Source: Candidatus Omnitrophota bacterium
Lineage (GTDB): Bacteria > Omnitrophota > Gorgyraeia > B26-G9
Reading direction: 5' to 3'
Length of the DNA stretch: 11,018 bases
Assembly (NCBI GenBank): GCA_030630245.1
Contig: DAOVNL010000010.1
Span: forward strand, 1 to 11,018
Position numbers and translations under genes: made by a program. Under the pieces are notes generated by a model, which had not been told where the DNA came from, searched no databases, and was given only the letters and a program-made list of their open reading frames with translations. Positions 1-11,018 of the stretch are shown one piece after another. Positions within the stretch are counted from its first letter, which is position 1. Each line of letters opens with the position of its first letter.

Positions 1-40
1 TGGCAGGAATATAGATCACAAAAGAAAATACCGGGGGATA

Positions 41-547
41 ATGTATATTGATATAGTTTATATAATACTGGGAATTATGCTTTTAATGCTCGGGCGAAAG
101 CTTTTTTGGCTGTTTTCAGGCGCGATAGCTTTTATTTTCGGTGTTGAATTTATCCCGTTGTTTTTACGCGGGCAATCCCAGCACGTGATCTGGATCATCG
201 CGCTTGTATTGTCGATAATCGCGATTATTCTTGCTTTTGTAATGCGGAAGATCGGATTGGGAGTTGCCGGATTTATGGCTGGCGGCTATGTGGCGATGAG
301 CATTGTCAATGAATTGGGATTTAATATCCCCTGGCTGCCATGGATTTTATTTGCAGCAGGAGGAATCATCGGCGTAGCGCTCACGCTTATATTGTTTGAT
401 TGGGCGCTGATCTTTCTTTCGTCATTAAGCGGGGCTTTTCTTATTGTGCAGGTTACCGGATTCAGTTTGCATTTAACTAAAATACTGTTTGTTTTTCTGG
501 TTGCCATGGGAATTGCGGCGCAGGCTGCTATTACAAAATCAAATTGA
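41..547 (+). CDS. Multi-pass membrane protein, DUF4203/TMEM198-like
   Basis: This 168-residue protein is almost entirely hydrophobic, with about six or seven predicted membrane segments: roughly residues 2-20, 22-42, 49-67, 70-88, 97-117, 119-138 and 143-162. It has short loops and several small-residue helices such as GVAGFMAGGYVAMS and ILFAAGGIIGVALTLILF. The alternating glycine-rich helices and the overall size resemble the DUF4203 (TMEM198-type) family, but I recognise no catalytic or transport motif. The ATG lies 3 bases after a G-rich stretch (CCGGGGG), a weak and close ribosome binding site. Its upstream context is outside the window, so its operon is unknown. The downstream gene has its own promoter. 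Family assignment is by general resemblance only. Confidence 0.7.
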   Translation: MYIDIVYIILGIMLLMLGRKLFWLFSGAIAFIFGVEFIPLFLRGQSQHVIWIIALVLSIIAIILAFVMRKIGLGVAGFMAGGYVAMSIVNELGFNIPWLPWILFAAGGIIGVALTLILFDWALIFLSSLSGAFLIVQVTGFSLHLTKILFVFLVAMGIAAQAAITKSN

Positions 548-601
548 TCGAACAAAAATCTCAGGGTATTTTTTGAGGTAAACCGGCAGGGCATTTTTTG
601 A

Positions 602-630
602 TTGCCTGTTAAAATAAGCGTTGCTATAAT
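602..630 (+). promoter_or_regulatory. Sigma-70-type promoter with extended -10, for the aminopeptidase unit
   Basis: A perfect TATAAT at 625-630 is preceded by TGC, giving an extended -10. A TTGCCT at 602-607 (4 of 6 matches to TTGACA) lies at the optimal 17-bp spacing. Transcription would start near 637, about 30 bases before the aminopeptidase ATG at 667. Confidence 0.75.
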
Positions 631-666
631 AATTAATGGCAAAATGTTCCTGTAAAAGATGAAAAC

Positions 667-1620
667 ATGATAAATATAGATGCCCTCAAGGCAATATTCC
701 ATAAATCCTTAAAGCTTACTCATAATGAATCCTGTCTTATTGTTACCGATACCGTAAAGGAAAATATCGGCAGGAACTTTTATGATTTCGCAAAGCAGAT
801 TACCCCGCGCGTGAAAATAATGGTCATGGAACCTGGGCTTGAACATGCGCAGGAGCCGCCTGATGAAGTTGCCGGAGAAATGCTGCTTTTCGATGTTCAG
901 TTTTTAATTACGGACAAATCTCTTTCTCATACCAAAGCAAGAAGAAAAGCAACAGAGAAGGGCTCAAGGATAGCTTCCATGCCCACCGTGACTGAGGATA
1001 TAATCAATAGATGCTGTTTGATAGATTATGATCTGCTCAGGCAGCAGTCGCGAGAACTTCACGCGGTTTTATCTCAGAGCTCCGGTGTGAGAGTAACTAC
1101 TGATCTGGGAACGGATATTATTTTTAAAATCGGCAAAAACAGGTGGTTTGGCGAAAACGGAGGTACATTTGATTACCCGGGGGCATTCGGTAATCTGCCT
1201 GAAGGAGAGGTTTCCTTTACGCCGCTTGAGGCGCAGGGAACCTATTTGGTCGATGCTTCGTTTCCCGAGCTTGGTATCCTTAAATCACCGCTGAGTTTTA
1301 AAGTTAAAGATTCTTTTGTCTATGAGATAGAAGGCAAGCAGGCTGATCTGGTAAGAAGGCGCCTGGATGAGGCTGGAGAGAAGGCATACAGAGTCGCGGA
1401 GCTGGGAATAGGGCTTAATCCCAAAGCAAAGATTACAGGCTATGTGCTTGAGGATGAAAAAATGCTTGGTACAGTACATATCGCGCTGGGCAATAACCTT
1501 TCCTATGGGGGAGACAATGATGTGCCTTTACATCTTGACGGGGTAATACTTAAACCGGATATTTATGTTGATGGGAAAAAAATAATGAGTAAGGGGAAGT
1601 TTGCCGAATTGCAAACTTAA
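667..1620 (+). CDS. Metallo-aminopeptidase, M29 / AmpS (aminopeptidase T) family
   Basis: The protein has 317 residues and probably removes N-terminal residues from peptides in the cytoplasm using two divalent metals. No signal peptide is visible. The C-terminal half carries the M29-type ligand pattern: LPEGEV with E179/E181, an ELGIG(L)N stretch at 245-251, LEDEKMLGTVHIALGNN at 261-277 (E262, E264, H271) and HLDGV at 289-293 (H289, D291). It is shorter than classical M29 enzymes of about 400 residues and matches the compact COG2309-type proteins better. The ATG follows a weak AAAGATG ribosome site, about 30 bases after the predicted transcription start. A tiny membrane-peptide gene begins three bases after its stop. 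Family assignment is firm; substrate preference cannot be read from sequence. Confidence 0.85.
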   Translation: MINIDALKAIFHKSLKLTHNESCLIVTDTVKENIGRNFYDFAKQITPRVKIMVMEPGLEHAQEPPDEVAGEMLLFDVQFLITDKSLSHTKARRKATEKGSRIASMPTVTEDIINRCCLIDYDLLRQQSRELHAVLSQSSGVRVTTDLGTDIIFKIGKNRWFGENGGTFDYPGAFGNLPEGEVSFTPLEAQGTYLVDASFPELGILKSPLSFKVKDSFVYEIEGKQADLVRRRLDEAGEKAYRVAELGIGLNPKAKITGYVLEDEKMLGTVHIALGNNLSYGGDNDVPLHLDGVILKPDIYVDGKKIMSKGKFAELQT

Positions 1621-1623
1621 AGT

Positions 1624-1722
1624 GTGGATAAGATAAAAATAAAATGGGGAAAAGATGTTATCGTAATGGCACTGGCTATAGGGTTGCTTTTAGGAGCTGT
1701 GCTGGGTTTTTCAGCAATATAA
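1624..1722 (+). CDS. Small single-pass membrane peptide (32 aa), GTG start
   Basis: A GTG three bases after the aminopeptidase stop opens a 32-codon frame. It begins with a basic amphipathic stretch (MDKIKIKWGKD) and continues as one glycine/alanine-rich membrane helix (VIVMALAIGLLLGAVLGFSAI) ending at TAA 1720-1722. The layout of a charged N-terminus followed by a helix with spaced glycines is typical of small membrane peptides. There is no clear Shine-Dalgarno site, so translation would depend on coupling to the upstream stop. An internal ATG at 1666 would leave only the helix. No homologue is recognised and this is not proven to be expressed. Confidence 0.45.
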   Translation: MDKIKIKWGKDVIVMALAIGLLLGAVLGFSAI

Positions 1723-1789
1723 AAAAAAGCTGATCTGCGGGATACCAAAAAGACTGAGCAGAAAAGCTGCGTTATAAGAGCAGGTTGTT

Positions 1790-2326
1790 ATGGGCAATAG
1801 CGGAAAAAGGCGCCGCGCGTTTATCGTGTTTATAGCCGCGGTTATTTTGCTGTTTAATCAGAGCCGTGTTCAGGCGGGCGTGCTTGAAGATAAGGTTTTC
1901 GGGCATAGTTTTGAATATCCTTTTGACTGGAAAGCCAGGGCTTTCCCTGATTCAAAAAATCTTATCAAGGGTGAGATAAACAAAGATAATGATACCGGCG
2001 CACAGATAAGAATATACCAAAATGCGGGTAATTTTCGCAAATTCGTTGACTGGTATGTGGACGATTTTGTGCAGCAGATGCAGAAACACTGGGGCGGGAA
2101 AATGGTGATCAGTGATAAGAAATTTACTTCGGTTGCCGGCTATGAGTGTTTTGTTATAAGTTTTGATTTTACCAGAAGGGACAATAAGCGCTGGTTTTTT
2201 AAACAGTATCTCTGGCCTAATGGCTCAGAGGTGCTCATATTGCAGTCGGGCACACTGTTTGAACTGCGTACCTTAAATGAACCGTCTATTGATTGGATCG
2301 CTAAATCGCTTAAGTTCATTAAATAG
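1790..2326 (+). CDS. Secreted protein with PsbP/DUF1795-like domain
   Basis: This 178-residue protein has a clear Sec signal peptide: KRRR at 7-9, a hydrophobic core at about 11-22, and a VQA cleavage site near residue 29. The mature part begins with a strand-rich SFEYPFDWKAR segment. It then has a lipid-free alpha/beta pattern, an FRKFVDWYVDDFVQQMQKHW helix at about 82-101, and repeated strands ending in SIDWIAKSLKFIK. The 'F-x-YP-x-x-W' opening and closing helix recall the PsbP/Mog1/DUF1795 fold, a family of periplasmic or lumenal proteins of varied function. No catalytic residues are visible. The ATG has only a weak GCAGG site upstream. It is followed after 10 bases by a membrane protein gene, suggesting co-transcription. 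Fold assignment is tentative. Confidence 0.65.
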   Translation: MGNSGKRRRAFIVFIAAVILLFNQSRVQAGVLEDKVFGHSFEYPFDWKARAFPDSKNLIKGEINKDNDTGAQIRIYQNAGNFRKFVDWYVDDFVQQMQKHWGGKMVISDKKFTSVAGYECFVISFDFTRRDNKRWFFKQYLWPNGSEVLILQSGTLFELRTLNEPSIDWIAKSLKFIK

Positions 2327-2336
2327 AAGGGGATAT

Positions 2337-2696
2337 ATGTTTGCAAAGATATTGGGATGGGCCTGGATAATTCTGGGAGTGGTTTTTCTGATGAAGCCCC
2401 AGATGCTGCGAAACCGCCTTCAGAAAAAGGGCATAAAAAAAATAAGAAAATACCTGTTTGCTGCAGCCCTGGCACTTTCATCAATGATCTTGTCGGTAGC
2501 CTGGAACTCAGAAGGGATACTGGCGAAAATCGTATTTATTTTCGGGCTTGTGGGAATTTTTAAATCAATGTTCTTTTTAAAGGAAAAAACATCGGAAAAG
2601 CTTGTTGAATGGTTATCAAAACAACAGCTTAAGTTTTTTACTGTATGGGCCGTCGCGCAGATATGTTTCGGCGTAATGTTGCTTTTGTTGCGTTAA
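2337..2696 (+). CDS. Small multi-pass membrane protein, function unknown
   Basis: The reading frame is open from an ATG at 2277, but that start lies inside the upstream gene and adds 20 polar residues. The ATG at 2337 is preceded by AGAAGGGGA and gives a protein that begins directly with a membrane helix, so I use it. The 119 residues hold four likely membrane segments (about 3-19, 39-56, 61-79 and 99-118). A very basic loop (RNRLQKKGIKKIRK) lies between the first two and probably faces the cytoplasm. No family motif is recognised. It sits 10 bases after the PsbP-like gene and three bases before the frame of the EF-hand protein, so these three probably form one transcript. Confidence 0.65.
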   Translation: MFAKILGWAWIILGVVFLMKPQMLRNRLQKKGIKKIRKYLFAAALALSSMILSVAWNSEGILAKIVFIFGLVGIFKSMFFLKEKTSEKLVEWLSKQQLKFFTVWAVAQICFGVMLLLLR

Positions 2697-2717
2697 CTTA
2701 TGAAAGGAGAAGAGATA

Positions 2718-3245
2718 ATGCGTAAATTCTTATTGGTGTTATCAATTGTTGCTTTGGCATTGTGTGTTTTTTACTCGGAGGCTTTGGCAAAGGGAAAGGG
2801 AAGCGAAAAAGCGCGTAAGGCGCAAAGGGTCGACAGGAATAAAGACGGGATCTTAGATACTCAGAAGCAGCGCCAGGCTAAACAAAAACTTGAGCGCAAA
2901 CAAAAAAAGGCAAACAATTGGTGGAGAAAAAGAGCGGCCTGGAAAGAAATGACCAGACAAAGAATCGATATGAACGGTGACGGGGTTATTTCTCCCAAGG
3001 AAAGGCGTTTGTCCTGGAGGCATGCCAGATCAAGAGTTAATACAAAGCTGGAGAAGCAATATGATGCTAATAATGACGGCTGGCTTGATCCGGATGAAAC
3101 AAAAAGTTTATTGCAGGCACGCAGGGAATTATTGAAAACGAAGGGAAAAGCAAAGGTGGATTCTCAAGTAGAGGCTGGATATGATAGGGATGAAAATGGT
3201 ATTATTGATGCCCGGGAAGCCGCAGCGATGATGGAGGATATTTAA
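2718..3245 (+). CDS. Secreted basic protein with four EF-hand-like calcium-binding loops
   Basis: I start at the ATG at 2718 because AAGGAGA (2704-2710) lies seven bases upstream; the in-frame ATG at 2700 precedes that site. The 175-residue product has a Sec signal peptide (MRKFLLVLSIVALALCVFYS, cleaved near ALA-K 25). The mature part has four EF-hand-type loops: DRNKDGILDTQK (39-50), DMNGDGVISPKE (84-95), DANNDGWLDPDE (116-127) and DRDENGIIDARE (156-167). Loops 2-4 keep Glu at position 12; loop 1 has Lys there and may bind poorly. Between them are very basic, Lys/Arg/Gln-rich helical segments. The protein probably binds Ca2+ outside the cytoplasmic membrane. A partner or structural role is not visible. 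Confidence 0.8.
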   Translation: MRKFLLVLSIVALALCVFYSEALAKGKGSEKARKAQRVDRNKDGILDTQKQRQAKQKLERKQKKANNWWRKRAAWKEMTRQRIDMNGDGVISPKERRLSWRHARSRVNTKLEKQYDANNDGWLDPDETKSLLQARRELLKTKGKAKVDSQVEAGYDRDENGIIDAREAAAMMEDI

Positions 3246-3303
3246 TAAATCAATTATATTTACAGAAGAAAAATATTAAATGACAAAATATAAAATCAAA
3301 AAT

Positions 3304-3333
3304 AAGGAAGGATGATGAAGGCATCATTTTTTT
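3304..3333 (+). terminator. Possible weak intrinsic terminator after the EF-hand gene
   Basis: ATGATG (3312-3317), loop AAGG and CATCAT (3322-3327) form a perfect 6-bp stem, extendable by G-T pairs, followed by seven T residues (3327-3333). The stem is AT-rich and weak. The same bases can also be read as AAGGA plus ATG start codons of the disrupted frame described next, so the two readings compete. Confidence 0.4.
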
Positions 3334-3546
3334 AGATAAAGTGAGAAAATAAAAACCGCTTGTGCATCATTTAACAAACTGGGTGAACTGGCAAAAGGGA
3401 TAAGCACGGGCCTTTGCTGCTATGAGATTGCCGCGGAGTGCGCGGCAGAAACATCTACCGGCCCAGGTACATTTAAAGAGAAGCTGTTTGACTGTATATT
3501 TTCGCTGAATAAAGAAACTGTAGATAAGAAGCAGAGGATTGAATAA
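3315..3546 (+). pseudogene. Frameshifted small ORF immediately upstream of thiE
   Basis: From 3340 to the TAA at 3544-3546 there is an open frame with natural-looking coding content (SEKIKTACASFNKLGELAKG..., several Cys, predicted helical, about 68 residues) but no ATG, GTG or TTG start in frame. A good start exists upstream: AGGA at 3305-3308, six bases before ATG 3315. That frame stops after MKASFF at TAG 3333. One extra T in the T7 run (3327-3333) and one extra A in the A run (3346-3349) would join everything into a single protein of roughly 77 residues. Its stop directly abuts the GTG start of thiE, as in a coupled gene pair. It could be a decayed gene, assembly indels, or a recoded gene. 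No family is recognised. Confidence 0.45.
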
Positions 3547-4155
3547 GTGAAAGGGTACTATTTTATAACAGATGAAAAACTCAGCTTTAAGGGAAATATC
3601 AGTTCTGTATATGCTGCAATTGATGCGGGTGTTCAGGTAATTCAGTATAGAAGCAAGGATATTTCTATGCAGCAGATGATTAATGAGGCGGCAAAGTTAA
3701 GGAGCATAACGTCAAAGGCGATATTCCTGATAAACGATTATATTGATGTGGCTTTGGCTGTTGATGCAGACGGAGTGCATTTGGGGCAAAATGATATCAG
3801 CTGTAAAGAGGCCAGAAAAAGACTCGGCTCTTATAAAAAAATAGGAATAAGCGTTAGTTCGCTTGAGCAGGCAAAACTTGCGCAAGAGCAGGGAGCAGAT
3901 TATTTAGGCGTGGGGCCTGTGTTCTGCACAACGACCAAAAGTGATGCCGGGGCGCCTTTAGGTATTGAGCTCATTAGAAAAATTAAAGCAGAAGTGTCAT
4001 TGCCGGTTGTAGCTATCGGCGGAATAACTCTTGATAATGCACCTCGGGTAATTGCCGCAGGCGCCGATGCCCTGTGCGCAATATCAGCTGTGGCATCAAA
4101 AGCCGATGTAAAAGAGGAAATTTTGAAATTTCAAAAACTATTCGTTAAAGTATGA
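3547..4155 (+). CDS. thiE: Thiamine-phosphate synthase
   Basis: ThiE joins hydroxymethylpyrimidine diphosphate and thiazole phosphate carboxylate/phosphate to make thiamine phosphate, as a cytoplasmic TIM barrel. The 202 residues show the family pattern: YFITD at 5-9, QYRSK at 33-37, LINDYIDVAL at 61-70 (Asn-Asp for Mg-diphosphate), DGVHLGQND at 75-83, GADYLGVGPVFCTTTK at 116-131 and AIGGI at 156-160. The length is normal. The start is GTG, preceded by AGAGGA at 3533-3538 and touching the upstream stop; no ATG fits. The related TenI aminotransferase-like regulator/thiazole tautomerase is possible, but the intact QYR-x-K, Asn-Asp and TTTK features favour ThiE. The gene overlaps the exonuclease gene by four bases. 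No TPP riboswitch is apparent upstream. Confidence 0.85.
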   Translation: MKGYYFITDEKLSFKGNISSVYAAIDAGVQVIQYRSKDISMQQMINEAAKLRSITSKAIFLINDYIDVALAVDADGVHLGQNDISCKEARKRLGSYKKIGISVSSLEQAKLAQEQGADYLGVGPVFCTTTKSDAGAPLGIELIRKIKAEVSLPVVAIGGITLDNAPRVIAAGADALCAISAVASKADVKEEILKFQKLFVKV

Positions 4156-4709
4156 AAAGATTATTAAATACCAGTCTTAAAAAAATCGATTTCGCGGTTG
4201 TGGATTTGGAAACTACGGGATTTTCAAGCGACAGAGATTGTGTGGTTGAAGTCGCTGCGGTCAAGGTGAAAAACGGCAGGATAAAAGACAGGTTCCAATC
4301 CTTAATATATACTGATTATATTCCCTATTATGCGACGCGGGTGCATGGCATTGATATAGACATGGTCTATGATGCCCCAACACTAAATACAGTCCGGAAT
4401 AATTTCCGCGAATTTACTCAAGGATGTATATTTGTAGGCCATAATATCAAGTCTTTTGATATGCCGTTTTTGGTGAATGCCTTTGATGTTGAGGAAGGGA
4501 TATGCTGTGTGGACACCCTGAAAATCTCAAGATACCTGTTTTCCCGTGAGCGTACGCATAAATTAGAAGCTGTTGCCCGGCGCTTAGGTATAAGCAGCAG
4601 AAAATATCACCGGGCTTTAGACGATGCTATAGTAACAGCTAAGATCTTTCTGGAATTTTTGAGTCTTGAGAAAAAAAGGTTCAGAATTTTAAAAGATATT
4701 GTTGCTTGA
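4152..4709 (+). CDS. DEDDh 3'-5' exonuclease (DnaQ/PolC epsilon-like)
   Basis: This 185-residue protein is a single exonuclease domain with all the DEDDh catalytic residues: VDLETTG with D18 and E20, GHNIKSFDMPFL with D103, and HRALDDA with H153 and D158. It would hydrolyse nucleotides from 3' ends using two metal ions. The size and the VVEVAAVKVKNG and VHGI segments match stand-alone DnaQ-like or PolC-exonuclease-like proteins. There is no polymerase, GIY-YIG or helicase domain attached. Whether it proofreads for the replicative polymerase or acts in repair or RNA processing cannot be told. Its ATG overlaps the thiE stop (ATGA), so the two are translationally coupled, though no functional link is obvious. 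A promoter for the next unit lies in its last codons. Confidence 0.85.
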   Translation: MKRLLNTSLKKIDFAVVDLETTGFSSDRDCVVEVAAVKVKNGRIKDRFQSLIYTDYIPYYATRVHGIDIDMVYDAPTLNTVRNNFREFTQGCIFVGHNIKSFDMPFLVNAFDVEEGICCVDTLKISRYLFSRERTHKLEAVARRLGISSRKYHRALDDAIVTAKIFLEFLSLEKKRFRILKDIVA

Positions 4710-4730
4710 AACAGCATTCTTAATTATAAT
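4702..4730 (+). promoter_or_regulatory. Likely sigma-70 promoter for the coiled-coil gene pair
   Basis: TATAAT at 4725-4730 is a perfect -10. TTGCTT at 4702-4707 (3 of 6 matches, TTG conserved) lies 17 bp upstream and overlaps the end of the exonuclease gene. The predicted start near 4737 leaves a very short leader before the GGGAGG ribosome site at 4742-4747. Confidence 0.5.
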
Positions 4731-4754
4731 AATATTGCTGAGGGAGGATTGAAG

Positions 4755-5090
4755 ATGAGAATATTGTTTGTTGTGTTCTTGCTTGCGTGTACCTTTTTAA
4801 ATCCTGTTTTTTTATTTGCTGTGCAAAAATACGGGTCAGCGGGCAATGAAAGAAAAATATCCAAAGAAGAAGAAATTTCCCGCCAGGAAGCAGTTGCTGT
4901 AAATAAAGAGCTGGATGCCGAGCTGCAAAAGTCAAATGCTGAAATTGAGCAGATGAGGCTAAAAGCCCAAGAGCAAACGCTAAAGGATATTAAGCAGGCA
5001 GAAAAAGACCTGGAAATGTCTACTCAGGAATTCCAAAAAGAGAAGTTTCCTGAGGAAATTAAGGAGAAAAAATCTCCGGAGGATCAATGA
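4755..5090 (+). CDS. Secreted coiled-coil protein, paralogue 1
   Basis: I chose the ATG at 4755 because GGGAGG (4742-4747) is seven bases upstream; an in-frame TTG at 4749 would be too close. The 111-residue product has a signal peptide (MRILFVVFLLACTFLNPVFLFA), then a highly charged Glu/Lys/Gln-rich helix from about residue 35 to the end. Heptad-like spacing is visible in ELDAELQKSNAEIEQMRLKAQEQ. There are no other domains and no lipobox Cys at the cleavage site, although Cys12 lies in the hydrophobic core. It overlaps the next gene by four bases (ATGA) and is clearly related to that protein. It is probably periplasmic, and function is unknown. Confidence 0.65.
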   Translation: MRILFVVFLLACTFLNPVFLFAVQKYGSAGNERKISKEEEISRQEAVAVNKELDAELQKSNAEIEQMRLKAQEQTLKDIKQAEKDLEMSTQEFQKEKFPEEIKEKKSPEDQ

Positions 5091-5542
5091 AGAGAATATT
5101 AACAGTTTTTGCCTTAATATTTTTTGCTTTAATTAACAATGCGGCATTTTCACTTGAAGTTCCCGGGGAAAATCCTCAGGATAAACAGTTCGGCCGGGAA
5201 GAGCAGTTTGCCAGGGAAGAGGCTGTAAGAGAACAGGGAAAAGCGGCGCTTGAAGTTGAAAAGGCAAATGCTGAGCTTGAAGAATTAAGATTAGAAGCAG
5301 AAGGGGTTGCGGCTGAGGATACAGCGCGTGCGCAGAAAGAGACCGATTTAATGTACCGGGAACTGGTCCGGGAATTATCAATACTATATAAAGAAGCTGA
5401 AAAAGAAGCTGAAGCAAGAAGAAAAGAGCTGGAAAAAGAAGAAGCAAGAGTTCTTAAGGAAGCTCTTGAGGCCTTTGAACAAACCACACAAGAGCTTGAT
5501 AAGGATTTGCAAAGGATAAAATTAAGGGCTCCGAGGCCTTAA
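5087..5542 (+). CDS. Secreted coiled-coil protein, paralogue 2
   Basis: The 151 residues start with a signal peptide (MKRILTVFALIFFALINNAAFS, cleavage near residue 22). A long Glu/Lys/Ala-rich helical region follows, from about residue 35 to 145. The segment EEAVREQGKAALEVEKANAELEELRLEAE matches EAVAVNKELDAELQKSNAEIEQMRLKAQ of the upstream neighbour almost position by position, so the two arose by tandem duplication. This copy has a longer C-terminal helix (EAEKEAEARRKELEKEEARVLKEALEAFEQ) and a short LRAPRP tail. The ATG overlaps the upstream stop, so translation is coupled. It may form a homo- or hetero-oligomeric coiled coil in the periplasm. No enzymatic motif is seen. Confidence 0.65.
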   Translation: MKRILTVFALIFFALINNAAFSLEVPGENPQDKQFGREEQFAREEAVREQGKAALEVEKANAELEELRLEAEGVAAEDTARAQKETDLMYRELVRELSILYKEAEKEAEARRKELEKEEARVLKEALEAFEQTTQELDKDLQRIKLRAPRP

Positions 5543-5566
5543 CCCTCTTTATTCCCGCGGATTAAA

Positions 5567-5779
5567 ATGGATAGTAAGACAAGAAAGCAAGAATACAGAA
5601 GAAAAGAAAAAAAAGAAATGGTGATTTTTGTAATAATATTAATCATCATTTTTCTTGCCGCGATATTCCTGGATAAAAAATTCAAACGCAAGATCTCAAG
5701 GCGTGTATTTGAGGGGGAGGTTCAGACGTATGACGGCTCTCTGCAAAGAAATATTACGAATCCGTTGGGTCTTGAATAA
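5567..5779 (+). CDS. Small single-pass membrane protein, function unknown
   Basis: The 70 residues have a strongly basic, charged N-terminus (MDSKTRKQEYRRKEKKE). One membrane helix (MVIFVIILIIIFLAAIFLD, about 18-36) follows, then a basic and polar tail. The positive charges on both sides make topology unclear. The ATG has no good ribosome site; an internal ATG at 5618 would begin right at the helix and is a possible alternative. It starts 24 bases after the paralogue 2 gene and is followed at once by an intrinsic terminator, so it is probably the last gene of that unit. No family is recognised. Confidence 0.5.
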   Translation: MDSKTRKQEYRRKEKKEMVIFVIILIIIFLAAIFLDKKFKRKISRRVFEGEVQTYDGSLQRNITNPLGLE

Positions 5780-5782
5780 TAC

Positions 5783-5808
5783 AATGCTTAATTTTTAGGC
5801 ATTTTTTT
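5783..5808 (+). terminator. Intrinsic terminator ending the 4755-5779 unit
   Basis: AATGCTTA (5783-5790), loop ATTTT and TAGGCATT (5796-5803) form an 8-bp stem with one G-T pair, running into a T run at 5802-5808. It lies directly after the stop of the small membrane protein and just before the TTGACA of the next promoter. Confidence 0.75.
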
Positions 5809-5810
5809 CC

Positions 5811-5837
5811 TTGACAATTTTTTGTGGAAATGATAAT
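5811..5837 (+). promoter_or_regulatory. Promoter of the nfnA/gltA unit (copy 1 of a shared module)
   Basis: A consensus TTGACA at 5811-5816 is followed by GATAAT at 5832-5837 (5 of 6, 15-bp spacing). Alternatively the -10 is TAATTT at 5834-5839 with a TGA extension and a 17-bp spacer. The TTGACA, the block GATAATTTTATTA and their spacing are identical upstream of the glutamate synthase gene (9727-9760). The sequences between them differ, which argues that these blocks are under constraint. Confidence 0.65.
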
Positions 5838-5852
5838 TTTATTATTGTTAGA

Positions 5853-5876
5853 TTGCAATACGTTGATGTGTTGTAA
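5853..5876 (+). promoter_or_regulatory. 24-bp inverted repeat, candidate operator or leader-RNA hairpin, copy 1
   Basis: Arms TTGCAATAC (5853-5861) and GTGTTGTAA (5868-5876) are separated by GTTGAT. As RNA all nine positions pair, two of them as G-U. The element starts at about +8 relative to the predicted transcription start. A near-identical repeat with the same 6-base spacing between the arms lies at 9761-9784 before the glutamate synthase gene. Both are followed by AAARTGAA. Confidence 0.6.
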
Positions 5877-5886
5877 AATGAAAGAT

Positions 5887-5929
5887 AAAGGCGTTTTTTG
5901 ATTTTTAAAGACAGAAAATGCCTTTTTTT
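5887..5929 (+). terminator. Intrinsic terminator inside the nfnA leader (possible attenuator)
   Basis: AAAGGCGTTTT (5887-5897) pairs with AAAATGCCTTT (5915-5925) over 11 bp with one G-T, and the T run extends to 5929. It lies about 40-80 bases after the predicted transcription start and 170 bases before nfnA. There is no gene between it and the terminator at 5783, so it cannot simply serve an upstream gene. It would make an ~85-nt RNA or act as an attenuator. Confidence 0.7.
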
Positions 5930-5956
5930 GTTTTATAGTGCTTATTTGATCAACTA

Positions 5957-6025
5957 CCCCGCAGCAAGCTGCGGGGAATTAAACTCGAGACCGAGACCCT
6001 TCGACTTCCTTCGGTCGCTCAGGGT
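5957..6025. repeat. REP-like palindromic cluster
   Basis: CCCCGCAGC (5957-5965) and GCTGCGGGG (5968-5976) form a perfect 9-bp GC-rich palindrome with AA between the arms. This is followed by ACCCT...CGAC...GTCG...AGGGT (5996-6025), a second imperfect hairpin. Both contrast sharply with the AT-rich surroundings. From memory, 'CCCCGCAGC-AA-GCTGCGGGG' and 'CCCTTCGAC...GCTCAGGG' are of the type seen as dispersed REP elements in many environmental genomes, but I cannot check copy number here. Confidence 0.55.
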
Positions 6026-6037
6026 TAATTCGACTAC

Positions 6038-6070
6038 AGAGCTTTTCTCAAGCACGCTGATGAAAGCTCT
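6038..6070. repeat. Inverted repeat upstream of nfnA
   Basis: AGAGCTTT (6038-6045) and AAAGCTCT (6063-6070) are perfect 8-base arms around a 17-base loop, ending 29 bases before the nfnA ATG. It could be the last hairpin of the REP-like cluster or a separate leader structure. There is no T run, so it is not a terminator. Confidence 0.5.
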
Positions 6071-6099
6071 AAGTCTCATTAAAATTATGGGTGAAAGAA

Positions 6100-6930
6100 A
6101 TGAAAATTATAGCAAAAGAACATATTGCCGAGGATCTTACTAAGTTTGTTATTGAATCAGAACTTATCGCGGAAAAAGCATTGCCGGGACAGTTTATCAT
6201 TCTTATGGTTTGTAAGGAAGGGGAACGTATCCCGCTGACTATTGTAGATACTGATGAGAAGAAAAAGACGATCACTATTATTTTTCAGGAAGTAGGATAT
6301 ACCACGAAATTATTAGGGAGATTGGAGTCAGGGGATTTATTGTATTCTCTGGTAGGACCTTTAGGTAAAGCTACGCCGGTTAGAAATTATGGTAAAGTCA
6401 TTGTTGTAGGAGGAGGAGTAGGTATTGCTGAACTTTTGCCTGTTGCGCGTGCTTTTAAAGATGCCGGGTGTGCAATTACCTCGATTTTAGGTGGCCGCAC
6501 CGCTGAACTGGTAATTTTGCCCGAACAAGTAAAAGAATATTCAGAGGATATGTATATTACTACTGATGACGGCTCCCTGGGCGAAAAGGGCATGGTAACC
6601 GATCCGTTGAAACGGTTAATAGAAAAGGATCAAAATTACGGATTGGTATTCTGTGTGGGTCCTCTACCTATGATGAGGGCAGTATCTGATCTAACCCGGG
6701 CGTTTAATATTAAGACTTTAGTATGTCTTAATTCCATAATGATTGATGGTACAGGAATGTGTGGCGGGTGTCGTGTTACAATCAATGGTGAAACTAAATT
6801 TACATGTGTTGACGGGCCTGACTTTGATGGACATGAGGTTGATTTCAATGAACTCATGACCAGGCAAAAGAGATTTATTTCGCACGAGAAACACGCTATG
6901 TGCAAGCTTGATGAGAAAATAAAAAAGTAA
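6100..6930 (+). CDS. NfnA/SudB-type FAD and [2Fe-2S] NAD(P)-binding subunit
   Basis: This is a ferredoxin-NADP reductase-like protein of 276 residues. It has RIPLT at 43-47 (FAD-contacting), a nucleotide-binding GGGVGIAELLP at 104-114, CVGPLPMM at 185-192 and a C-terminal [2Fe-2S] site MCGGCR...FTCVDGPDFDGHEVDF with C221, C224 and C236. Such proteins are the small subunit of NADH-dependent ferredoxin:NADP+ oxidoreductase (Nfn) or sulfide dehydrogenase. Their partner is the GltA-type subunit encoded 72 bases downstream. A dihydroorotate dehydrogenase electron-transfer subunit (PyrK) is related, but no pyrD is nearby. I prefer ATG 6100, with GGGTGA at 6089-6094, to the in-frame GTG at 6091. Transcription probably starts at 5811-5845, through a leader holding a terminator. 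Confidence 0.85.
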   Translation: MKIIAKEHIAEDLTKFVIESELIAEKALPGQFIILMVCKEGERIPLTIVDTDEKKKTITIIFQEVGYTTKLLGRLESGDLLYSLVGPLGKATPVRNYGKVIVVGGGVGIAELLPVARAFKDAGCAITSILGGRTAELVILPEQVKEYSEDMYITTDDGSLGEKGMVTDPLKRLIEKDQNYGLVFCVGPLPMMRAVSDLTRAFNIKTLVCLNSIMIDGTGMCGGCRVTINGETKFTCVDGPDFDGHEVDFNELMTRQKRFISHEKHAMCKLDEKIKK

Positions 6931-6935
6931 TACCA

Positions 6936-6960
6936 TAATGATAGTAATCAGCTATTATTA
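6936..6960. repeat. AT-rich inverted repeat between nfnA and gltA
   Basis: TAATGATAG (6936-6944) and CTATTATTA (6952-6960) pair over nine positions with one G-T, around a 7-base loop. There is no T run. It may be a transcript-stability or processing hairpin within the operon. Confidence 0.4.
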
Positions 6961-7002
6961 GATAGAACTTTTCTCCTTGTTGATGAAAGAAACGGAGCAG
7001 TA

Positions 7003-8400
7003 ATGGCAAAGGTGAACCAGAAACAAGTACCCATGCGGGAGCAATCTTATGCAGAAAGAATTAAGAATTTTAAAGAAGTTCCCTGCGGTTATTCCGAAGA
7101 AGAAGCAGTTCTTGAGGCTAAAAGATGTTTGCAATGTAAAAATCCTTTATGCGCGCAAGGTTGTCCGGTAGGAATTGATATCCCGGGATTTATAGATCTT
7201 ATTGCCAAGGAGGATTTTCGTGGTTCTATACGAAAAATGAAAGAAAAAAATTCCCTTCCGGCTATATGCGGCCGAGTATGCCCTCAAGAGGATCAATGTC
7301 AGAAAGTGTGCGTGTTAGCAAAAAGGAAAGAACCCATAGCCATCGGAAGATTAGAAAGATTTATTGCTGATTGGGAAGCAAGGCAAGGCGATATAGAAAT
7401 ACCTTCTAAAAAACCTCCTACGGGTAAAAAAATAGCATGTGTAGGCAGCGGACCCGCGGGGCTTACTGTTGCCGGTGAATCGGCGAAACTCGGACACAAC
7501 GTAACCATATTAGAGGCATTACATGAACTTGGCGGCGTGCTTACCTATGGTATTCCTGAGTTCAGGCTGCCAAATAGCATAGTGCAAAGAGAGGTAGAAT
7601 ATATTTCCTCCCTGGGAGTAAAAATTATGACCTCTTTTGTTGTGAGTAAATTAAAGACTGTTGATGAACTTTTAGAAGAATTTGATGCGGTATTTATTGC
7701 GACAGGTGCCGGGCTTCCCTGGTTTATGTCTATTCCGGGTGAAAACTACAATGGCGTATATTCAGCAAATGAGTATCTTACCAGGACAAATCTGATGAGA
7801 GCATATCAATTTCCTAAATATGATACCCCGATTATTAAAGGAAAACAGGCCGCGGTAATCGGTGGGGGTAATGTAGCTATGGATTCTGTAAGAACCGCGC
7901 TTCGCCTTGGAGCAGAAAAGACGATGATTATATACAGAAGGTCAAAAACGGAGATGCCGGCAAGATTAGAGGAAATTCATCATGCCGAAGAAGAAGGGGT
8001 TATATTTGAATTTTTGACTTTGCCTGTTGCCTATCACCCTGATGAGAAGGGGTGGTTAAAAGAGATGGAATGCATACGTATGGAATTAGGAGAACCGGAT
8101 GCTTCCGGGCGAAGAAGACCGATTCCGATAGAAGGGTCAAACTTTAGAATTCCTGTGGATGTAGTTGTTGTTGCCATAGGTAATAGTCCAAATCCCTTGC
8201 TTCCTTCTTTAACACCAGATTTAAAACTAGGCAAAAAGGGCAATATAGTAATTGATCAGAATTCCGGCAAAACCAGTAAAAAAGGAGTCTTCGCCGGAGG
8301 AGATATTGCGACTGGCGCTGCTACAGTAATTTCAGCGATGGGAGCGGGAAAGATCGCTGCTTGGGCAATTGATGAGTACTTAAAAACCGGAGAATGGTAA
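7003..8400 (+). CDS. gltA: GltA/NfnB: NADPH-dependent glutamate synthase small subunit-type flavoprotein
   Basis: The 465-residue protein has the full family layout. An N-terminal iron-sulfur region carries RCLQCKNPLCAQGCPV (C42, C45, C50, C54) and CGRVCPQEDQCQKVC (C89, C93, C99, C103). An FAD-binding GSGPAG is at 148-153, an NAD(P)-binding GGGNVAMD at 287-294, and the C-terminal FAD motif AGGDIATGAATVISAMGAGKIAA at 431-453. It moves electrons from NAD(P)H through FAD to Fe-S clusters. With the upstream NfnA-like protein it could form electron-bifurcating NfnAB. With the FMN-type glutamate synthase encoded downstream it could supply reductant for glutamate synthesis. The sequence does not decide between these roles. 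The start has GGAG at 6994-6997. Length and motifs are complete. Confidence 0.9.
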   Translation: MAKVNQKQVPMREQSYAERIKNFKEVPCGYSEEEAVLEAKRCLQCKNPLCAQGCPVGIDIPGFIDLIAKEDFRGSIRKMKEKNSLPAICGRVCPQEDQCQKVCVLAKRKEPIAIGRLERFIADWEARQGDIEIPSKKPPTGKKIACVGSGPAGLTVAGESAKLGHNVTILEALHELGGVLTYGIPEFRLPNSIVQREVEYISSLGVKIMTSFVVSKLKTVDELLEEFDAVFIATGAGLPWFMSIPGENYNGVYSANEYLTRTNLMRAYQFPKYDTPIIKGKQAAVIGGGNVAMDSVRTALRLGAEKTMIIYRRSKTEMPARLEEIHHAEEEGVIFEFLTLPVAYHPDEKGWLKEMECIRMELGEPDASGRRRPIPIEGSNFRIPVDVVVVAIGNSPNPLLPSLTPDLKLGKKGNIVIDQNSGKTSKKGVFAGGDIATGAATVISAMGAGKIAAWAIDEYLKTGEW

Positions 8401-8473
8401 TGCATAAAAGTCTTTATACGGTAAAAATTAAATATTCTGAAATTATCGGCCTGGGTTGTGAGTATTAAAATAA

Positions 8474-8490
8474 GGAATAAAACCTATTCC
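8474..8490 (+). promoter_or_regulatory. Small hairpin abutting the icd ribosome binding site
   Basis: GGAATA (8474-8479), loop AAACC and TATTCC (8485-8490) form a perfect 6-bp stem that ends directly at the icd ribosome site GGGAGAGGG (8491-8499). It could modulate ribosome access. No convincing promoter is visible in the 104-base gap, so icd may be read from the gltA transcript. Confidence 0.3.
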
Positions 8491-8504
8491 GGGAGAGGGA
8501 AAAG

Positions 8505-9716
8505 ATGTCAAAAGAACTGATTAAAAAGGCAAGCAAAAGATTTGAGACGATAATAAAAGAACAGCTTCAGCGAGTAGAAGAGATGAAAAAGCCGGTTTCG
8601 ATGCCGGACTATGCAACTTTATCCCCGATTATTATCGGAATTTGCTGGGGGGATGGAATCGGGGAAATAATATCAAAACATGCTCAGAAGGTTTTAGAAT
8701 ATGTTCTAAAAGATGAAGCAGCTAAAGGAAAGATTACATTTAAAGATATAAAGGGATTGACCATTGAAAACAGGGCAAAGCATAAAAAGGCAATTCCGGA
8801 TGATGTATTAACCGAAATAAAATCATGCCATGTTATTCTAAAAGGCCCGACAACGACTCCGCAGGCTGGTGATAAATGGCCGAATATTGAAAGTGCCAAT
8901 GTGGCCATGCGCAGGTATTTGGATTTATTCGCAAACGTGCGTCCGGTCAGGATTCCTCATAAGGGTATTAACTGGTGTTTTTTTCGCGAGAATACTGAAG
9001 GTGCTTATGTGCTGGGTTCAAAAGGATTTGATGTCTCTGATGATTTGAGTATAGATTTTAAGGTTATTACTGAGCAGGGAGCAGAGCGGATTATCCGTAT
9101 GGCTTTTGAATACGCGAAAAAGAATAATATTGATAAAGTTACAGTGGTGACCAAATCAAATGTGGTGAAAACTACGGACGGCCGTTTTTCCCGTGTCGCC
9201 TTTCGTATTGCCAAGGAATATCCCGGGATCAAACTGGATGAGTGGTATATTGATATAATGACCGCGAAGTTGATTGACCCGGCGAGGCGTAAGGATTTTA
9301 AGGTAATGGTACTCCCTAATCTTTATGGCGATATTTTAACGGACGAAGCTGCGCAAATGCAGGGCGGTGTAGGCACAGCCGGTAGCGCGAATATCGGGCA
9401 AAAATGGTCTATGTTTGAGGCGATACATGGAAGCGCGCCGCGCATGGTTAAGGAAGGCCGGGCAAAATATGCTGATCCTTGTTCAATGATTCGCGCAAGC
9501 GCTATGCTGCTTAGACATATTGGATTTAATAAAAAAGCCCAAAAAATAGAGATGGCATTAGATGTCTGCGGCCAGTTTGAGAAGAAAATGGCAATTACAG
9601 GAAGAGATACCGGAGTGACCGGAGAAGAATATACTGCATATTTATTGTCATGGGTGGATAATCCAGGACTAAAAGCCCGCTGGGAACAAGGAATTAAGGC
9701 GGCAAGCGGGGCCTAA
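8505..9716 (+). CDS. icd: Isocitrate dehydrogenase (isocitrate/isopropylmalate dehydrogenase family)
   Basis: This enzyme oxidatively decarboxylates isocitrate to 2-oxoglutarate, giving NAD(P)H. The 403 residues show WGDGIG at 48-53, the substrate-binding SANVAMRRYLDLFANVRP at 130-147 (S130, N132, R136, R146), ENTEGAY at 162-168, TKSN at 216-219, the metal-binding NLYGDILTDEAA at 272-283 (D276, D280) and EAIHGSAP at 305-312. The Ser/Asn/Arg set fits isocitrate rather than isopropylmalate. There is an unusual charged, helical N-terminal extension of about 38 residues before the first strand. After HGSAP the sequence is RMVKEGRAKYADP, which does not clearly match the NADP (Lys-Tyr) or NAD (Asp-Ile) patterns, so I leave the cofactor open. 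Its position between gltA and a glutamate synthase gene suggests supply of 2-oxoglutarate. Confidence 0.9.
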   Translation: MSKELIKKASKRFETIIKEQLQRVEEMKKPVSMPDYATLSPIIIGICWGDGIGEIISKHAQKVLEYVLKDEAAKGKITFKDIKGLTIENRAKHKKAIPDDVLTEIKSCHVILKGPTTTPQAGDKWPNIESANVAMRRYLDLFANVRPVRIPHKGINWCFFRENTEGAYVLGSKGFDVSDDLSIDFKVITEQGAERIIRMAFEYAKKNNIDKVTVVTKSNVVKTTDGRFSRVAFRIAKEYPGIKLDEWYIDIMTAKLIDPARRKDFKVMVLPNLYGDILTDEAAQMQGGVGTAGSANIGQKWSMFEAIHGSAPRMVKEGRAKYADPCSMIRASAMLLRHIGFNKKAQKIEMALDVCGQFEKKMAITGRDTGVTGEEYTAYLLSWVDNPGLKARWEQGIKAASGA

Positions 9717-9726
9717 ATATTTTTTC

Positions 9727-9753
9727 TTGACAAATTTTCAAGTAAATGATAAT
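9727..9753 (+). promoter_or_regulatory. Promoter of the glutamate synthase gene (copy 2 of the shared module)
   Basis: A consensus TTGACA at 9727-9732 and GATAAT at 9748-9753 (15-bp spacing) match the nfnA promoter. The alternative extended -10, TGA TAATTT ending at 9755, also holds. The element begins 10 bases after the icd stop, so the glutamate synthase gene can be transcribed separately from icd. Confidence 0.65.
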
Positions 9754-9760
9754 TTTATTA

Positions 9761-9784
9761 ATGCAATACAATGGTGTATTGTAA
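9761..9784 (+). promoter_or_regulatory. 24-bp inverted repeat, candidate operator or leader-RNA hairpin, copy 2
   Basis: ATGCAATAC (9761-9769), spacer AATGGT and GTATTGTAA (9776-9784) match the repeat at 5853-5876 in arms and spacing. In RNA the best stem is TGCAATACA/TGTATTGTA with an ATGG loop. Where the copies differ in the right arm (A here, G in copy 1), pairing with T/U is kept. It is followed by AAAGTGAA. Confidence 0.6.
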
Positions 9785-9795
9785 AGTGAATTCTG

Positions 9796-9841
9796 AACAA
9801 AGACGTTCTCCTCATGGAAGGGGAATGTCTTTGTTTTTTTT
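9796..9841 (+). terminator. Strong intrinsic terminator before the glutamate synthase gene
   Basis: AACAAAGACGTTCTCC (9796-9811) pairs with GGGGAATGTCTTTGTT (9820-9835) over 16 positions with two G-T pairs, followed by eight T residues (9834-9841). It lies after the TTGACA promoter and inverted repeat but 63 bases before the glutamate synthase ATG. It may end icd transcripts, attenuate the downstream gene, or end a small RNA. Confidence 0.85.
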
Positions 9842-9849
9842 ATATGTAG

Positions 9850-9879
9850 ATGTTTAAACATTAGGCAAATAATGCCTAA
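9850..9879 (+). promoter_or_regulatory. Palindrome and hairpin in the glutamate synthase leader
   Basis: ATGTTTAAACAT (9850-9861) is a perfect 12-bp palindrome. It is followed at once by TTAGGCA (9861-9867), loop AATAA, TGCCTAA (9873-9879), a perfect 7-bp hairpin 9 bases before the GGGAGGG ribosome site (9889-9895). It could be an operator or a translation-control hairpin. Confidence 0.35.
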
Positions 9880-9903
9880 AAAAAGAAAGGGAGGGTAAAA
9901 GGT

Positions 9904-11018
9904 ATGATTCAATGGCCGAAAACAAATGATGCGCTGGGCACAGTAAATCGCGGAAATCCCTGTGAATCGGGCTTATGCACATTATGCCGGGCTGATTGTA
10001 AAGGCAAATGTGAAACCTGGATGTCCAGTTTAAAGGGCAGAAAAATGCTCTATCCGCGTGATTTTGGTTCTATTACTGCGGGAAGTGCCAATACTACAGC
10101 TATAGGAGTTAACTATAATTCGCTGCGCATAGACGGATATGTGTACGGATCTAACGGTGTGCCGAATGGACTTTCCCATTCAGAAGATGACTGTATCTTT
10201 CCGAACGTAAAGATAGAAGGTGAATTTGGCACTAAGATCAAAACAAAATTCAGAGTACCCATAATGACCGGAGCATTAGGCTCAACTTTTATTGCGGCTA
10301 AATACTGGGAATCTTTTGCTGTTGGAGCAGCTCTTGTGGGTTATCCGATTGTTGTCGGTGAAAACGTTGTCGGTATTGATAAACAGGCAGTTATCAAAAA
10401 CGGTAAGATCTTCAAAGCGCCGGAATTAGACAGAAGAATCGATACATTTTTGCGCTATTATGACGGTTATGGTGCAATTATTGTTCAGATGAACGTTGAA
10501 GATACTCGCAATGGTGTAGCAGAATATATTATCGGCAAGTACGGCGACAAAGTAATTCTGGAGCTTAAGTGGGGCCAGGGAGCAAAGGTTATCGGCGGAG
10601 AGATACAGGTAACCAATCTCGAGTACGCTTTGTTCTTAAAAAAAAGAGGGTATGTTGTTGACCCTGACCCGGAATGTCCTGAGGTACAGCAGGCTTTCAA
10701 ACATGGATCCATTAAATCTATTGCCCGTCACAGCAGATTAGGTTATACCGGCCTTTCTCATCGTGATGAAGTTAAAGCCAATTTCATGAAAGCAGTTAAG
10801 CATCTCAGAAAACTTGGTTACAAGAGAATCTCTCTTAAAACCGGTTCTTATGGTATGGAAACACTTGCTATGAGCATCAAGTACGCATCTGAGGCAAGTC
10901 TTGAACTGCTTACTATTGACGGTTCAGGCGGCGGTACCGGAATGAGCCCATGGAATATGATGGAAAGCTGGGGTGTACCTTCAGTAATTCTGCATGCTAA
11001 GGCTTATGAGTACGCAAA
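9904..11018 (+). CDS. FMN-binding glutamate synthase family protein, archaeal type (partial, 3' end cut)
   Basis: The frame starts at ATG 9904, eight bases after GGGAGGG, and is open to the window edge (371 codons plus two bases). The product matches the FMN domain of glutamate synthase. It has IMTGALGS, the helix-strand order of a flavin TIM barrel, ISLKTGSYGMETLAM (K312) and the hallmark IDGSGGGTGMSPWNMMESWGVPS with D339 and G342-G346. That barrel normally uses ammonia channelled from glutamine to aminate 2-oxoglutarate. No glutaminase domain precedes it, so, as in archaeal-type enzymes, the amidotransferase would be a separate protein. A Cys-rich start (C20, C25, C28, C32, C36; CX4CX2CX3CX3C) suggests an added metal or Fe-S site. 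The expected [3Fe-4S] cysteines would lie beyond the window. Confidence 0.85.
   Translation, partial: MIQWPKTNDALGTVNRGNPCESGLCTLCRADCKGKCETWMSSLKGRKMLYPRDFGSITAGSANTTAIGVNYNSLRIDGYVYGSNGVPNGLSHSEDDCIFPNVKIEGEFGTKIKTKFRVPIMTGALGSTFIAAKYWESFAVGAALVGYPIVVGENVVGIDKQAVIKNGKIFKAPELDRRIDTFLRYYDGYGAIIVQMNVEDTRNGVAEYIIGKYGDKVILELKWGQGAKVIGGEIQVTNLEYALFLKKRGYVVDPDPECPEVQQAFKHGSIKSIARHSRLGYTGLSHRDEVKANFMKAVKHLRKLGYKRISLKTGSYGMETLAMSIKYASEASLELLTIDGSGGGTGMSPWNMMESWGVPSVILHAKAYEYA

Follow-up and report, generated by a model that had tools for sequence, protein, structure and literature searches.

Two promoter, hairpin and terminator modules upstream of nfnA and gltB

We analyzed an 11,018-nucleotide (nt) stretch of a Candidatus Omnitrophota genome (contig DAOVNL010000010.1, positions 1 to 11,018; hereafter the window), which carries an nfnA-like gene, a gltA/nfnB-like gene, an isocitrate/isopropylmalate dehydrogenase family gene (idh) and a gltB-like gene that runs off the window (Table 1). 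No NCBIfam model scored above its cut-off for the idh product, and the gltB-like product gave no NCBIfam match; idh may perhaps be the source of 2-oxoglutarate. Upstream of nfnA and of gltB lie two related modules, each of which, judging from the sequence comparisons presented here, very probably comprises a promoter and, after it, an ANTAR-type leader for transcription attenuation in nitrogen assimilation, under the control of a GAF-ANTAR protein. The anatomy of the modules, the covariation among related leaders, their linkage to nitrogen genes, their co-occurrence with ANTAR genes and the conserved RNA-contact residues of the putative regulator were all computed.

Both modules, which the initial annotation had described as a repeated promoter and palindrome, were confirmed in the sequence at 5811 and 9727. 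The promoter reads TTGACA-N15-GATAATTTTATTA in each copy, and the palindrome core TGCAATAC-N6-GTRTTGTAA (5854-5876 and 9762-9784) is followed by AAARTGAA; the palindrome is shifted by 8 bases relative to the promoter between the copies, as had been noted, and the flanking 'TNT' of the earlier consensus proved inexact. A pattern search of the window at up to 3 mismatches returned 4 rows, namely the two copies on both strands, where shuffles predicted 0.04, and both modules are far beyond chance. Across the genome's own assembly (1.14 Mb, 69.5% complete), the two window copies were the only perfect matches; one extra row had 3 mismatches, and a reversed control pattern gave 6 rows. A consensus promoter scan listed neither promoter because it covers spacers of 16-18, whereas both have a spacer of 15; the spacing of the copy 1 promoter recurs before nfnA of the same-genus genome G002.

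The initial annotation had ended the module at AAARTGAA, which was too early: upon folding, the reported palindrome forms a first hairpin (P1), and a second hexaloop hairpin (P2) and an intrinsic terminator come next in each copy. Both copies thus contain two hairpins, each with at least 3 base pairs (bp) and a six-nucleotide loop, separated by a linker of 5 nt in copy 1 and 11 nt in copy 2. The leaders folded at -25.2 and -33.1 kcal/mol for copies 1 and 2, with z-scores of -5.2 and -6.8. As the loop and 3' half of P2 double as the 5' arm of the terminator, P2 and the terminator are mutually exclusive, and as forcing P2 costs ~16 kcal/mol in copy 2 and ~9 kcal/mol in copy 1 in the predicted folds, P2 needs to be held in place by another factor, most naturally a protein. 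The terminator stem of copy 2, with 18 pairs, was the longest among 17 terminator-like sites in a consensus scan of the window; the copy 1 terminator, absent from that scan, is predicted by the folds. The P2 of copy 1 and the terminator of copy 2 fall within matches (5879-5927 and 9791-9834, respectively) to the covariance model described below, both copies being seeds of that model.

Table 1. Features of the window, with positions, strand and the evidence for each
Feature	Position	Strand	Evidence
Candidate DNA operator TGCTTAA-TTT-TTAGGCA, just upstream of copy 1 promoter	5785..5801	+	1 mismatch to TGCCTAANNNTTAGGCA
Promoter copy 1: TTGACA 5811-5816, 15 nt, GATAAT 5832-5837	5811..5837	+	sequence
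P1 stem-loop copy 1 (reported palindrome): 9-bp stem, loop GTTGAT 5862-5867	5853..5876	+	sequence, folds
P2 stem-loop copy 1: AAGAT-[AAAGGC 5887-5892]-GTTTT, overlaps terminator	5882..5897	+	sequence, folds
Intrinsic terminator copy 1: stem 5887-5925, T run 5923-5929	5887..5930	+	folds
nfnA-like ferredoxin/NAD(P) oxidoreductase subunit	6091..6930	+	Pfam DHODB_Fe-S_bind, NAD_binding_1; NCBIfam PRK06222.1 above cut-off
gltA/nfnB-like NADPH-dependent glutamate synthase small-subunit homologue	7003..8400	+	NCBIfam TIGR01316 gltA above cut-off
idh, isocitrate/isopropylmalate dehydrogenase family gene	8505..9716	+	Pfam Iso_dh
Promoter copy 2: TTGACA 9727-9732, 15 nt, GATAAT 9748-9753	9727..9753	+	sequence
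P1 stem-loop copy 2: TGCAATAC-[AATGGT 9770-9775]-GTATTGTA	9762..9784	+	sequence, folds, P1 finder
P2 stem-loop copy 2: GAAC-[AAAGAC 9799-9804]-GTTC	9795..9808	+	P2-terminator finding in leaders, folds
Intrinsic terminator copy 2: stem 9795-9836, T run to 9841	9795..9841	+	folds, terminator scan
Candidate DNA operator TGTTTAA-ACA-TTAGGCA, then AATAA-TGCCTAA; between terminator and gltB	9851..9867	+	2 mismatches
gltB-like glutamate synthase large-subunit gene, runs off window	9904..11016	+	Pfam Glu_synthase

Because the bases between the conserved blocks differ, the two copies had been taken for something other than a recent duplication. The spacers have indeed diverged, but the two leaders can be aligned over their whole length, with 80 of 100 positions identical and a score of 39.0 versus 12.6 +/- 2.9 for base-shuffled sequences. 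The nfnA leader of G002 is identical to the window gltB leader at 99 of 112 positions and to the window nfnA leader at 79 of 101. The window leaders are best read as diverged paralogous leaders, and whole-leader duplication or exchange within the genus, followed by divergence, appears to fit the alignments better than an independent assembly of parts; convergent assembly was rejected, as the whole-leader alignment favors paralogy.

Covariation and gene context of related leaders

A scan of genome contigs with the gltB protein yielded 445 relatives, of which the best 80 were used; 40 of these were titled Omnitrophota in various spellings (including one titled Aceula, which we presume to belong here), and the rest came from other bacteria. 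A gltB homologue was present in 21 of the 58 genomes of our relatives set. Many of the relatives' gltB leaders read RGAC-[AAAGRC]-GTCY followed by a terminator. From leaders showing a P2-like hairpin, with P2-less leaders left out, we picked 32 segments for a P2-terminator alignment, 31 of them before gltB (including window copy 2) and one, window copy 1, before nfnA; L062, L087, L125 and same-contig duplicates were excluded. In this alignment 95.4% of the terminator cells were paired, two-sided changes occurred in 7 of 12 pairs, and four of five covariation measures were reached by none of 500 shuffles, the fifth by 1 of 500. The P2 stem contained 17 two-sided cells, a number reached by 1 of 500 shuffles, versus 8.0 for the shuffles, with three of the five measures exceeding them.

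For P1, we considered a class of 25 hairpins with AC/GU closing pairs (AC/GT in the DNA), picked by eye and partly for their pairing, from which GC-closed long-linker P1s and the unclear cases G007b, G012b and G025 were excluded. The covariation score of this class was 0.556 versus 0.272, with none of 500 shuffles as high; as the hairpins were selected by eye and others were left out, their percentage paired is biased upward. P1 remains paired in the relatives, with AC closing its 5' side and G as the fourth loop base, but its sequence is not kept. A strict P1 finder reported a hairpin in 36 of 73 leaders versus 4.4 expected, a count that includes the probably false L061, L066 and L082 and omits at least six likely P1s that its rules missed (win1, G000c, G002b, G056c, L063 and L064).

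This retention of pairing without sequence speaks against the initial annotation's suggestion of one transcription factor acting on the palindrome, that is, of a DNA operator for a dimeric factor placed just downstream of the promoter in a glutamate regulon. A near-perfect palindrome does stand beside strong promoters, with only two perfect copies in the assembly, but relatives carry hairpins of other sequence in its place, with G-U pairs and an asymmetric conserved loop, and the position of the hairpin relative to the promoter varies among them. At up to 2 mismatches, the letter pattern gave 34 rows versus 22 control rows in the 58 genomes, and the palindrome sequence was not conserved at orthologous sites, where only the same-genus nfnA leader (G002:C48) was clearly alike, with 2 mismatches. 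As an operator would also leave P2 and the terminator unexplained, we consider it very improbable; pattern searches of the own genome and of the 58 genomes, together with the P1 covariation, led us to discard it.

We built a covariance model of P2 and the terminator, termed R1, from the 32-segment alignment and searched the 58 genomes at a cut-off of E <= 0.001, obtaining 46 matches in 27 genomes, window copies included, 8 of the 46 being seeds. A total of 39 matches (31 of 38 without the seeds) preceded glutamate, glutamine or ammonium genes or an ANTAR gene, namely gltB (10), nfnA (7), gdhA (5), type III glutamine synthetase (3), glnA (3), amtB (3), P-II (3), glutamine amidotransferase enzymes (4; purF-like, carA, pyrG and nadE) and the ANTAR gene (1). 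As downstream gene we took the longest reading frame whose start lay no more than 700 nt away, and 13 matches were re-read. Eight matches (G001, G002a, G007a, G008, G012a, G025, G030 and G035a) were turned to the P2 strand before this reading, having been reported on the opposite strand because the terminator is nearly palindromic. Pfam searches on 20 of the 46 downstream proteins supported 17 as nitrogen, glutamine or ANTAR proteins; three own-genome downstream proteins were also checked with Pfam, and the other 23 were named from their translations.

The small regulon for glutamate synthesis and the shared leader RNA that the initial annotation had offered as explanations are both supported by these matches, as the search upstream of orthologues that it had proposed recovered related leaders in relatives before gltB, nfnA, glnA, type III glutamine synthetase, gdhA, amtB and P-II genes. 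Of the three R1 matches in the own genome, two are the window copies and the third is a leader that precedes glnA on contig C4; the earlier statement that there is no third copy is therefore true within the window, but a copy of the same class exists elsewhere in the genome. We also consider it very improbable that each module encodes an independent small RNA, one working in trans or titrating the ANTAR protein. The layout of promoter, hairpin and terminator matches that of a small RNA gene, and the folds are strong, but 39 of the 46 related elements are oriented in sense upstream of nitrogen genes or the ANTAR gene, and P2 shares sequence with a terminator that covaries, as attenuation in cis predicts. 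Terminated leaders could act in trans or as titrators secondarily.

A GAF-ANTAR protein as the candidate regulator

The own assembly contains a single match to the ANTAR family PF03861 (E 2.0e-21, contig C65), which lies in a 236-amino-acid (aa) GAF-ANTAR protein encoded downstream of pyrG (Pfam ANTAR 73.4 bits, GAF_2 68.2 bits). Its ANTAR part matched four PDB sequences at E <= 0.01, those of EutV, Rv1626 (identified by name from PMC7496416), NasR and AmiR. Using the list of EutV RNA-contact residues of PMC8934654, and assuming that the numbering of chain and paper is offset by 2, we found 8 of 11 contacts kept in the own protein (R142, K143, K149, E160, Y164, R168, M172 and R175), including the three that hold the G at loop position 4 in EutV (R142, K149 and E160) and the methionine plug M172 (PMC8934654). 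The remaining contacts are changed from K147 to R, N173 to S and R177 to P.

Related leaders and ANTAR genes occurred together. Across 196 genomes of the class, R1 matched 94 of the 159 that carry an ANTAR gene versus 2 of the 37 without (Fisher p = 4e-10, uncorrected for kinship). In the first 58 genomes the counts were 26 of 42 versus 1 of 16, and upon removal of the eight seed genomes 18 of 34 versus 1 of 16. Where the places of both were listed, an R1 match lay within 5 kb of the ANTAR gene in 21 of 83 genomes. The ANTAR gene directly adjoins a gltB homologue in G007 (contig C119, L197), G026:C14, G034:C1 and G040:C68, and in G007 a leader stands upstream of the ANTAR gene, which suggests that this gene may be autoregulated.

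We propose the following mechanism, in which we infer binding, antitermination and its direction, and the reading of idh together with nfnA. By default, polymerase would make P1, the terminator would form and transcription would stop after ~80-90 nt, as the folds and promoter positions indicate. When nitrogen status calls for it, the GAF-ANTAR protein would bind the P1 and P2 hexaloops on the nascent RNA and hold P2, whose use of the terminator's 5' arm would prevent termination and allow readthrough into nfnA-gltA-idh at copy 1 or gltB at copy 2. The third leader would place glnA under the same control, and the protein would thereby set the supply of glutamate and glutamine. Among the best NCBIfam and PDB matches of the GAF domain are NifA and PtsP (PEP-protein phosphotransferase), none of them coming close to the full-length NCBIfam cut-offs. 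Glutamine binding has been reported for the GAF domain of the PtsP enzyme (PMC4848567). By this analogy, one may reasonably guess, but not claim, that glutamine is the signal; that the domain senses glutamine or 2-oxoglutarate is likewise a guess.

This proposal agrees in many respects with known ANTAR systems of the EutV, NasR and AmiR type. In ANTAR target RNAs, each of the two hairpins carries a six-nucleotide loop in which the first base is A and the fourth is G, and P2 overlaps the terminator (PMC3369931, PMC8934654). The loops of P1 and P2 in copy 2 and of P2 in copy 1 fit this rule, RNAfold additionally pairing positions 1 and 6 of the copy 2 P1 loop. As in the EutV-controlled eut leaders of Enterococcus faecalis, which have linkers of 5-12 nt and in which AC/GU closing pairs are important in eutP (PMC3369931, PMC8934654), the window leaders combine P1 and P2 hexaloops, AC/GU closing pairs on P1, linkers within this range and a P2 inside the terminator. 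Copy 2 shows every ANTAR target RNA feature that we tested, and copy 1 departs at P1 loop position 1. The window leaders differ from the eut leaders, which serve ethanolamine use, in that their targets concern glutamate and glutamine assimilation, and the regulator is a GAF-ANTAR protein rather than, like EutV, a phosphorylated response regulator. In being a one-component fusion of sensor and ANTAR domain that needs no kinase, it resembles NasR of Klebsiella oxytoca, in which a nitrate-sensing NIT domain takes the place of GAF (PMC7496416).

The window leaders belong to a known kind, as earlier work had predicted ANTAR leaders upstream of glutamate synthase in Desulfotomaculum reducens and of many nitrogen genes in D. 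acetoxidans (PMC3369931). The target pathway, RNA criteria and prediction route (covariance search plus terminator) are shared with these cases, whereas the phyla differ, and the window's relatives also show long-linker and apparently single-hexaloop forms as well as leaders before nfnA, gdhA, purF-like, carA, pyrG and nadE genes, a comparison made with passages of the main text of that paper. In the literature searched, we found no paper joining 'ANTAR domain' with Omnitrophota or Omnitrophica.

Several observations weigh against the ANTAR interpretation. In copy 1, P1 has G rather than A at loop position 1 (with G at position 4, as by eye in L063 and L064), although this position is needed in EutV, and P2 closes with a U-G pair and is not stable by itself in the fold; the own glnA leader has, by eye, a seven-nucleotide P1 loop. 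Two of the five covariation measures of the P2 stem and one of the five of P1 did not rise above shuffles, the outer two P2 pairs fail in 12 and 14 sequences, and a recognizable P1 is absent from many relatives' leaders. That A at position 1 and G at position 4 of the P2 loop never vary among the seeds follows from how these were picked, namely with loops of that form, and R1, all 46 of whose matches have such a loop, in turn favors it. As to gene context, 7 of the 46 matches precede other or unknown genes, comprising secreted-looking genes of no known family (4 matches, 3 genomes), a [2Fe-2S] thioredoxin-like gene, an Na/Pi cotransporter and a contig end, and one P-II case (G056) has a 193-aa reading frame first. 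The EutV residues N173 and R177, replaced by S and P here, belong to a triple mutant that abolishes binding. No R1 match was obtained in 65 of the 159 ANTAR-bearing genomes, G008 and G107 have a match and no detected ANTAR gene, and the kinship of the sampled genomes means that the p-values overstate independence.

Finally, no window match reached an Rfam gathering score, a negative that also counts against a riboswitch that would respond to a small molecule such as glutamine and use the terminator as expression platform. The controlled glutamine and glutamate genes and the terminator leaders would suit such a riboswitch, but permissive Rfam scans gave 19 and 28 sub-threshold matches, to microRNA and small RNA families among others, taken as chance and all far below the family cut-offs (best mir-2076, E 0.001, 26.1 of 90 bits), two short hairpins and a terminator would seem too little for a ligand pocket, and the elements co-occur with an ANTAR gene. 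We regard a riboswitch as extremely improbable and retain the ANTAR-type attenuation leader.

Leader variants, neighboring motifs and implications

A further shared palindrome, TGCCTAA-N3-TTAGGCA, which the initial annotation had missed, lies near both modules (5785-5801 and 9851-9879) and is frequently accompanied by a third half-site. At up to 3 mismatches, it was found in 28 of 96 gltB upstream regions versus 5 of 380 in-gene control windows, with examples at L035, L059-L074, L078, L083, L088 and L090. This motif appears a better DNA-operator candidate than the P1 palindrome and looks like the operator of a further nitrogen regulator. Seven gltB loci titled as other groups (L056, L058, L060, L071, L075, L079 and L080) show by eye a related palindrome, GGCA-N4-TGCC, and our P2-terminator finder returned nothing in their gltB upstream regions. 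Within the window, positions 5955-6035, between the copy 1 terminator and nfnA, are rich in inverted repeats (CCCCGCAGC..GCTGCGGGG, then CTTCGACTTCCTTCGGTCGCTCAGGG) and by eye resemble dispersed palindromic repeats.

Further observations concern the leaders of relatives. Tandem attenuators precede one gene in G048, where two R1 matches lie at C6:36642 and 36714 (L179 and L200), and by eye also in G056:C17 (L173) and L066. Leaders L179, L198 and L188 (G048, G041 and G055) stand before a secreted-looking protein with the motif ATxSTHIWxPSTD, for which the G048 protein gave no Pfam match; possibly, at the level of a guess, it is an outer-membrane protein linked to nitrogen uptake. By eye, GTTACC and a later TTACTT stretch recur, mostly instead of TTGACA, upstream of the leaders of glnA, type III glutamine synthetase, amtB and secreted-looking genes (L201 near 720 on the minus strand, L195, L182, L196, L198, L179 and L188), and these could perhaps form an activator-dependent promoter class.

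The relatives' leaders occur in three layouts, with P1 and P2 close together as in the window, ~20-29 nt apart (e.g., L059, L067 and L073), or with P2 alone. Among the 72 leaders examined, 60 had a strong promoter match, and in 16 of these P2 begins 4-14 nt after the -10 box, which leaves no room for P1; the promoter calls are consensus matches, and the transcription starts are predicted, not mapped. Such a short 5' leader is the only R1 match, under strict filters that lose weak matches, in six genomes with one ANTAR gene each (G021, G024, G032, G042, G043 and G054). We regard a single-hexaloop leader class as a strong lead, not a result. It is conceivable, at somewhat less than even chances, that ANTAR antitermination also works with one 5'-terminal hexaloop, in the absence of P1, the recruitment hairpin considered essential in E. 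faecalis. If so, P1 would be recast as optional, which could explain how copy 1 tolerates an altered P1 loop. Why ANTAR targets have two hairpins, when the protein dimer contacts one at a time, is an open question (PMC8934654), on which this spread of leader forms, close together, far apart and apparently single at the 5' end, bears directly.

Overall, sequence analysis alone offers a probable mechanism for the control of nitrogen assimilation, together with a candidate regulator, in a group known through metagenome-assembled genomes; the R1 model matches 96 of the 196 genomes sampled from the class.

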